Below are positions 37,973 through 39,824 of a stretch of DNA of 64,000 nt, piece after piece. The stretch comes from Ureibacillus manganicus DSM 26584. Its GTDB lineage: Bacteria > Bacillota > Bacilli > Bacillales_A > Planococcaceae. The stretch covers positions 1-64,000 of the forward strand of contig NZ_JPVN01000004.1 in assembly GCF_000772945.1 (NCBI RefSeq). The letters are read 5' to 3'. The notes below the pieces were generated by a model. The model did not search any database. It was not told the DNA's origin and saw nothing but the letters and a program-made list of their open reading frames with translations. Both the position numbers and the translations under genes were made by a program. Each line of letters opens with the position of its first letter. The stretch's first letter is position 1.

Positions 37973-38338
37973 TTATTTTTTCTTGTTCGCTACAGTTTTA
38001 CGAGGACCTTTACGCGTACGCGCATTATTTTTCGTATTTTGACCACGAACAGGTAAACCACGACGGTGACGGATACCACGGAATGATCCGATTTCCATTA
38101 AACGTTTGATGTTTAATGAGATTTCACGACGTAAGTCACCTTCTGTTTTATAAGAATCTAATTGTTCACGGATTAGGTTTAGTTCATCTTCAGTTAAATC
38201 GCGTACACGAGTTTCTTCAGATACACCAGCAGCTGCTAATACTTTTTTAGCAGTTGTTTTACCAATACCGTAAATGTATGTTAATGAAATTACAACGCGT
38301 TTGTCGCGAGGAATGTCAACACCAGCAATACGTGCCAT
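37973..38338 (-). CDS. rpsM: 30S ribosomal protein S13
   Basis: 121 aa. [20 protein letters not shown] start, the helix-two-turn-helix near [11 protein letters not shown], and the basic tail [19 protein letters not shown] reaching the decoding-site tRNAs. First of the rpsM-rpsK-rpoA-rplQ group after rpmJ. Confidence 0.98.
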
Positions 38339-38362
38339 ACTTTTAGTGCACCTCCTTCTAAA

Positions 38363-38476
<114 letters not shown>

Positions 38477-38513: not shown

Positions 38514-38732
38514 TTATTTAAAACGGTATGTGATACGACCGCGAGTTAAATCGTAAGGAGATAACTCTATAGTAACCTTATCTCCAGGTAAAATTCTGAT
38601 AAAATGCATGCGAATCTTTCCAGATACGTGAGCAAGAATCGTATGCCCATTTTCTAATTCTACCTTAAACATCGCGTTTGGCAAAGTCTCAACTACTGTT
38701 CCTTCGACTTCAATTACATCGTCTTTCGCCAT
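38514..38732 (-). CDS. infA: Translation initiation factor IF-1
   Basis: 72 aa OB-fold: [21 protein letters not shown] and the [10 protein letters not shown]-like block ([20 protein letters not shown]). ATG 38732 chosen over the adjacent upstream TTG. Immediately upstream lies the decayed map gene, so infA may now depend on read-through from adk or on its own promoter. Confidence 0.97.
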
Positions 38733-38771
38733 CAACCCTATCTCCCTTCTATATGCAACTTTTTCCGATTC

Positions 38772-39116
38772 TCAAATTTGAGAAACCATCCAATTGTTTT
38801 CTTCAAAAGAAGCAACACCATTAACATATGCATGGATTGTATGAGAGATGTTCGAAAGACGCTCGTCTGGTTTCGCTTCACACAATCCACGGAAATACAA
38901 AATCCAACTAATAGATTATGTAATCCACATTGTTTAACGATAGCCGGAATGTCTTGGATGAGAGATTCATACCCGTTTACACAGATGCTTCCACGAAACC
39001 CTTAACACACTTTTTAGTGTCATCCTATTTAAAATAAGCATTACACTTTATAAGTGTATACCGGGCACAATATGCTTTTGCAACTCTCATTAATTTTTTG
39101 TTGCACCGCAGTTCAC
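38772..39116 (-). pseudogene. map: Decayed methionine aminopeptidase gene (map remnant)
   Basis: Between adk and infA, where Bacilli normally carry map, no intact gene exists. Minus-strand frames show scattered MAP-like blocks in the correct order. ELQKHIVPGI (39086-39057) matches the family's ELxKHIxPGI. GFRGSICVNGYESLIQDIP (39001-38945) matches GFPGSICxSVNEExVHGIP. GFCISVDCV (about 38905-38879) resembles GDIISIDIG. AKPDERLSNISHTIHAYV (38876-38823) matches AKPGNRLSDISHAIQTYV. The blocks are in different frames with stops, the spacing is shortened by deletions, and the C-terminal catalytic half is missing. This is a frameshifted, truncated relic; a functional MAP must be elsewhere in the genome. 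Confidence 0.8.
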
Positions 39117-39152
39117 GCGCGAAAAATAGTTTAGTTCGCCTAATGCCGGGTA

Positions 39153-39824
<672 letters not shown>

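Follow-up and report, generated by a model that had tools for sequence, protein, structure and literature searches.

The gap between adk and infA in the S10-spc-alpha cluster of Ureibacillus manganicus DSM 26584 descends from mapA, the methionine aminopeptidase (MAP) gene of the spc operon. Based on the conservation of its remains, we consider it probable that the dead gene has been exapted as a leader or intercistronic RNA serving infA-rpmJ-rpsM-rpsK-rpoA-rplQ, and that in many genera it includes an internal promoter.

The window analyzed here is a stretch of 64,000 nucleotides (contig NZ_JPVN01000004.1, our C52; genome 4.05 Mb), in which the cluster lies on the minus strand and the adk-infA gap measures 420 nt (Table 1). 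The initial annotation, made from this sequence alone, had placed a decayed map gene at 38772-39116. That span proved too narrow, as the element occupies 38733-39152. A gap of 387-436 nt with the same blocks was found in all 24 Ureibacillus loci that had both flanks.

Table 1. Coordinates of the adk-infA element, its parts and its flanks in the window.
Feature	Position	Strand	Basis or remark
adk, upstream flank	39153..39809	-	ORF of 218 aa with GAGKGTQ and TGDMFR
Whole element, adk-infA gap built of mapA remains	38733..39152	-	Profile matches; same gap in genus loci
Block B1	39054..39086	-	MAP codons ELQKHIVPGIH; identity 0.918
Stem-loop P3x, B1-B2 interval	39002..39061	-	Closing arms take in the decayed -10 site
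TGTTAA at the TATAAT site of other genera	39002..39007	-	MAP codons Tyr-Asn; promoter-like box lost
Block B2, GGGTTTCGTGGAAGCATC	38984..39001	-	MAP codons GFRGSI; identity 0.991
Block B3	38944..38976	-	MAP codons (V)NGYESLIQDIP; identity 0.832
Variable stem-loop P4, B3-B4 interval	38889..38943	-	Stability against shuffles
Block B4, hairpin P5 (GGATTGTGTGAAGC.../...CATACAATCC)	38834..38888	-	MAP codons GLCEAKPDERLSNISHTIQ; identity 0.979
B4 core, GTCTTTCGAACATCTCTCAT	38841..38860	-	Exact in 43/82 family gaps
Stem-loop P6, immediately upstream of the infA ribosome-binding site	38768..38787	-	Stability against shuffles
infA Shine-Dalgarno, AGAAGGGAG	38742..38750	-	Sequence; relatives have AGAAGGGAG or AGAGAGGAG-type
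infA, downstream flank (ATG at 38732)	38514..38732	-	Followed by rpmJ, rpsM, rpsK, rpoA, rplQ

Ancestry of the gap and loss of mapA

A MAP profile made from 29 intact mapA proteins of other families of the class was compared with 82 distinct gaps between adk and infA from the window's family, the window's own included. Left out of the 82 were ten of the 48 loci of one set that did not have both adk and infA (chance pattern matches or contig ends), and L034-L041, which repeat the same places. Sense-frame matches were obtained in 79 of the 82 gaps at E<1 and in 47 at E<1e-3, and antisense matches in none, while 1640 dinucleotide shuffles yielded two matches at E<1 and none at 0.01. In the window the profile matched MAP residues 130-155 (YFRGLCEAKPDERLSNISHTIHAYVN; 20.3 bits, E 1.1e-7 for six frames) and, in a different frame, residues 58-81 (GFRGSICVNGYESLIQDIPA; 9.3 bits, E 2.6e-4). 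Nothing past residue 155 was matched, indicating that the catalytic C-terminal half is gone, and an open mapA frame of about 248 codons was absent, its pieces lying in different frames with stops between them.

The profile and the reading of open frames agreed with the initial annotation in finding MAP-like blocks on the minus strand, in MAP order, in different frames and separated by stops, with the C-terminal half missing. Its individual blocks fared unevenly. ELQKHIVPGI lines up by eye with EELKKHIKPGI in intact mapA and is kept in relatives, but alone it is non-significant (-0.3 bits); the ELQKHIVPGIH of the window corresponds to EELKKHIKPGIS of L030, where mapA is intact. GFCISVDCV, which had also been named as a MAP block, falls in the variable part before B4 and was not matched by the profile; chance resemblance is the best reading of it. 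Intact mapA follows adk in L030, and infA lies at most 340 nt behind mapA in 26 of the 29 intact loci. The gap has both homology in MAP order and the syntenic place, the marks of mapA-pseudogene ancestry, and the sister genomes carry the same element at this place and no unrelated one.

When mapA was used as the query, the best MAP was only 34-40% identical in all 51 genomes of the family (19 genera). A search of the order, in which the 81 genomes all belonged to the same family and overlapped the 51, gave 33-40% identity in every one, and in the class sample 100 of 121 genomes had a mapA match at E<=1e-60. The loss of mapA appears from this distribution to predate the family. Three M24-peptidase matches were present in the U. 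manganicus genome: a gene of 247 aa on contig C33, which is a type I MAP (TIGR00500, 300 bits; 37% identical to the mapA of L030), and frames of 361 and 377 codons. The second map elsewhere in the genome postulated by the initial annotation was therefore found, and mapA ancestry and the loss of the operon enzyme are supported by the profile matches and broken frames. What did not stand was the picture of a relic in ordinary decay, since the blocks outlast synonymous sites, stem-loops are kept, a spacing is fixed and retention is parallel in a second family. PMC1266368 describes map as essential in B. subtilis and yflG as dispensable, each of the two restoring MAP function when present in multicopy, which makes it plausible by analogy that the second MAP took over from mapA.

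Loci of three further families were read by eye. In L208 (family f12) the gap is 512 nt and mapA is gone from the operon, and an open frame resembling the KOW-type gene that usually sits behind mapA seems kept. The gaps of L207 (family f9; 173 nt) and L029 (family f10; 84 nt) have no recognizable mapA remains, and such lineages may have lost mapA without the element being kept.

Conservation of the blocks and of a promoter-like site

Mean pairwise identities of the blocks among the 24 Ureibacillus loci (276 pairs) ranged from that of B3 to that of B2 (Table 1), against reference values of 0.697 for the fourfold sites of adk and infA and 0.600 for the rest of the gap. When the divergent clade L024-L027 was compared with the rest, B2 had an identity of 0.994, B4 of 0.958 and B1 of 0.809, with fourfold sites at 0.565; B3, at 0.605, was no better than this synonymous level, which counts against the reading we prefer. 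By codon phase, B4 identity was 0.991, 0.964 and 0.982 at positions 1, 2 and 3. The third codon position is as well conserved as the first two, and the selection is therefore not on protein. The block and fourfold identities together show a constraint that neutral decay does not leave, and purifying selection on DNA or RNA of map origin is well supported by them.

The blocks are also found beyond the genus. Among 200 family genomes, a 20-nt piece of B4 occurred with no more than one mismatch in g1, g23, g29, g30, g31, g32, g34 and g35. A 23-nt piece had 45 stretches among 84,980 species genomes, all of them in Lysinibacillus, Ureibacillus, Solibacillus, Metasolibacillus, Caryophanon or 'Bacillus ndiopicus'. 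The gaps with the exact B4 core represent nine genera, and ACATCWCTCAT was present in 66 of the 82 gaps (16 genera). In the divergent genera the adk-infA gap was at the same place in 29 of 29 loci and recognizable parts were kept, with exceptions that count against our reading: B4 was lost in g28, and little was kept in g20, the genus in which B1, recognizable in the others, was not. Synonymous constraint was scanned in 241 windows over 42 intact mapA genes. It was strongest in a window spanning the -35-like codons (TKQGAIPS; z 4.1, ratio 1.60), reached about z 2 in the B4 region (HAIQTYVE) and was not raised at the -10 codons. This codon constraint is modest, comes from statistics that ignore kinship and is suggestive only.

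The sequence TATAATGG was located at the start of B2 in 49 of the 82 gaps (15 of 19 genera). In 35 of these 49 gaps (10 genera) RTGCAW lay exactly 23 nt upstream of TATAAT; at 47 other offsets together it occurred four times, in one genus. The 17-nt spacers were only 0.39 identical between genera, and the distance from B1 to TATAAT ran from 56 to 102 across the 45 gaps measured. Codon arithmetic traces RTGCAW-N17-TATAAT to the MAP codons (x)AIPSFKGYN. In the class sample the pattern was present in 25 of 299 genomes, 11 of the window's family and 14 others; among the latter it lay in an open mapA frame in 12 (f14, f29, f33, f44) and in a relic in one (G464, f51), the remaining genome, G409, being left out of the frame reading.

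Several results for this site count against our preferred reading. In Ureibacillus, TATAATGG was at the start of B2 in none of 23 gaps, so that TATAAT has been lost genus-wide, and the window gap contained no consensus promoter and no terminator. The sigma-A -35 consensus is TTGACA, with which RTGCAW agrees at only three of six positions. We also considered B1 as a promoter (TTGCAA-N17-TATAYA) and rejected it: the spacing is 16-19 in some genera and the spacer is itself conserved. In favour of our preferred reading, PMC4495994, citing Boylan et al. 1989, describes the rpoA unit of B. subtilis as starting upstream of infA.

A second family, f51, was sampled with 30 genomes. Intact mapA was found in all 15 loci read from g131, g132 and g133 (frames of 252-258 codons), and mapA was broken in all 11 genomes of g126, g128, g129 and g130, the gaps being 479-791 nt where measured. 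RTGCAW-N17-TATAATGG was retained in 10 of these 11 relics, the exception being in g129, which is without that part, and TCGAACRTCTCTCATGC was retained in all 11. In g126, where adk fourfold identity is only 0.48 (205/425), TTATAATGGTT, TCGAACGTCTCTCATGCAATTCA and TATGCCGGACATGGGATTGGTCAAGA were common to the four relics aligned (of five, L202 being left out), bar one letter in TTATAATGGTT. Two considerations temper this result: TATGCCGGACATGGGATTGGTCAAGA is a third stretch, kept in g126 and lost in the window's family, which counts against our reading, and the relics of g128 and g130 may be recent, in which case their retention would need no selection.

Because intact genera lie inside f51, its losses of mapA are best taken as separate from the loss in the window's family. 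In a weakly supported adk protein tree, built from 40 rows without g128 and with one g129 genome present twice, all 19 family rows shared one side with a long-branched f9 row. The f51 relics required three label changes, and the tree agrees with separate losses. Loci L181-L211 of f51 display stages from largely whole to compacted relics beside intact genera, and mapA appears to have broken on two or more occasions inside this family.

Folding of the gap RNA and alternative explanations

The whole window gap folded more stably than 100 of 100 shuffles (z -2.86). Stem-loops were sought in 46 gaps from eight genera, of which the patterns caught 35 for P3x, 38 for P4 and 32 for P6. The mean z was -2.66 for P3x (32 distinct segments, 6 genera), -1.62 for P4 (36 segments, 7 genera) and -2.05 for P6 (27 segments, 7 genera), and 23, 14 and 15 of these segments, respectively, beat 95% of their shuffles. 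Taken singly, 9 of the P3x, 22 of the P4 and 12 of the P6 segments fell below that level, and this counts against our reading. The sequence between the blocks varies in letters and length across genera and on average retains the capacity to form stem-loops; the P6 stems of three Metasolibacillus (g34) loci, for instance, are GAUUACC/GGUAGUC, GGUUAUC/GAUAAUC and GAUUAUC/GAUAAUC.

The P5 region gave an 88-nt fold of -24.1 kcal. In a comparison of up to three loci per genus, the hairpin formed in g1, g22, g23, g26, g29, g30, g32, g34 and L076 (g35), and g31 has the same arms in sequence. Both arms have changed together in g26 (UUAUGAG with CUCAUAA; L052-L054); in L086 of g18, B2 can supply an arm. 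P5 was not formed in the folds of g19, g20, g21, g24, g27, g33 and L090, a further result against our reading. In the alignment, double changes were seen in 2 of 33 pairs (covariation term 0.01), a score reached by 2 of 500 shuffles and one that related sequences can reach without structure. Formal covariation is weak, as there is almost no variation in the conserved helices.

The RNA element is without a match in Rfam 15: no model gave a match within the gap at E values up to 1, either in the window or in nine other loci. Elsewhere in the window, at the rpsM leader (38306-38406, minus strand), there was a sub-threshold match to RF00140 Alpha_RBS (25 bits against a gathering cut-off of 38). 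Weak RF00140 matches were also seen downstream of infA in seven of nine other loci, one of the misses, L201, ending before rpsM. An S4-type leader may thus be present at rpsM, below the cut-off.

Longer-range pairing was considered as well. RNAalifold predicted the helices ACCCG/CGGGT and UGCUUCC/GGAAGCA from 54 sequences, and we do not claim them. It is speculative that B2 acts as a switch, its GAAGCA pairing with either a 5' UGCUUYC or a 3' UUGCUUC. A switch that frees the infA ribosome-binding site through UUGCUUCU is also left as speculation, because the g30 site reads AGAGAGGAG, breaking the pairing. In the g126 relics L196 and L201-L204, GAATTCATGAGAG, close to the start, has its complement, CTCTCATGCAATTC, at a later position, and TGAGAG in B1 of the window's family matches CTCTCA in B4; long-range pairing is possible in both. 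The adk tail reads ..LLQGSRS-like in much of the family (39153-39179 in the window) and ..LLGGLNK in L030, and its codons could form part of the 5' portion of the RNA.

Two alternatives remain live. An element acting as DNA only, that is, an internal promoter with regulator binding sites and an RNA without function, would account for the fixed spacing of RTGCAW-N17-TATAAT in 10 genera and in 10 of 11 f51 relics. We regard it as unlikely, since in Ureibacillus the box is gone but B2 and B4 are nearly invariant, and since variable stem-loops are maintained, also upstream of the promoter-like site. A small RNA with a trans-acting or housekeeping role, cut from the operon transcript or started within it, seems rather less likely still. 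Its expected features are present (a length of about 400 nt, several stem-loops, near-invariant blocks and the fold z of -2.86), but in every gap read the element is flanked by adk and infA and extends into the ribosome-binding site of infA, and none of the Rfam families matches it.

The slow decay of a plain pseudogene, with MAP resemblance left by chance, would fit the broken frames, the deleted C-terminal half and the second MAP gene, but it is already contradicted and very improbable: across the 24 genus loci the blocks stand far above synonymous sites, third codon positions included, parts are recognizable across 19 genera, the promoter-like spacing is exact and f51 shows parallel retention. 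A hidden protein, made via frameshifts or as a truncated MAP-like peptide, is scarcely credible despite stop-free stretches of up to 157 codons over the gap in some genera, as the frames differ between species, stops and indels separate the blocks, the catalytic half is missing and B4 is conserved at third codon positions as at the others.

Proposed origin and comparison with known systems

Together, the conservation of the blocks, the kept stem-loops, the fixed spacing and the parallel retention are signs of selection on DNA or RNA, not of fading. A leader and promoter region for infA-rpoA would be the most economical function, because the element has a fixed place, runs into the infA ribosome-binding site and holds a promoter-like site in many genera. 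We propose that the mapA coding sequence held an internal promoter for the alpha-operon genes together with RNA signals for them, and that a second MAP gene made the mapA protein dispensable. The embedded signals would then have stayed under selection as other mapA sequence was deleted, and the remnant would have been converted into a non-coding cis-acting element before the family radiated. Since the -10 box has decayed in Ureibacillus, the element would there most likely act as a structured intercistronic RNA in a read-through transcript, and it may set infA translation, or mRNA processing or stability, between the spc and alpha parts. More tentatively, the general case may be that a core-operon enzyme gene held promoter and RNA signals in its codons, and that the protein was lost in at least two families and the signals kept, giving rise to a new class of structured leader RNA.

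The element was described nowhere in the open-licence PubMed Central literature searched. In Lysinibacillus and its relatives it is likely to be a point at which IF1 and RNA polymerase alpha are controlled, and it offers a many-species natural experiment on the fate of regulatory information in a coding sequence once the protein is unneeded. The intact gene, partly broken genes and the converted element all occur in living relatives, so that the shaping of codons by the signals of the next gene is directly testable.

Internal promoters occur inside the coding sequences of operons, and RTGCAW-N17-TATAAT resembles them in being encoded, in several families with intact mapA, by MAP codons. The difference is that here, in two families, the promoter-like site persists although its host gene is dead. 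Among eukaryotic pseudogene-derived regulatory RNAs, Xist arose from a protein gene and PTENP1 is another example; the likeness is the passage from a protein gene to a functional non-coding RNA, which here is suggested from sequence. Unlike those RNAs, the gap element is bacterial and in cis, inside the spc operon, where it replaces an enzyme gene described as essential in B. subtilis in PMC1266368. The type I MAP pair of B. subtilis, map and yflG, from the same source, includes the same kind of gene as the remains and a second MAP that could take over, whereas here mapA is gone.

The gap element is also comparable to ribosomal-protein leaders, such as the S4 leaders of alpha-type operons and RF00140 Alpha_RBS (PMC7247131). 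Like them it would be structured RNA beside a ribosomal-protein operon, and it is placed as such leaders are, ahead of infA, rpmJ, rpsM, rpsK, rpoA and rplQ. It differs from them in having no Rfam match and in its derivation from a dead enzyme gene, and autoregulatory binding is putative here.
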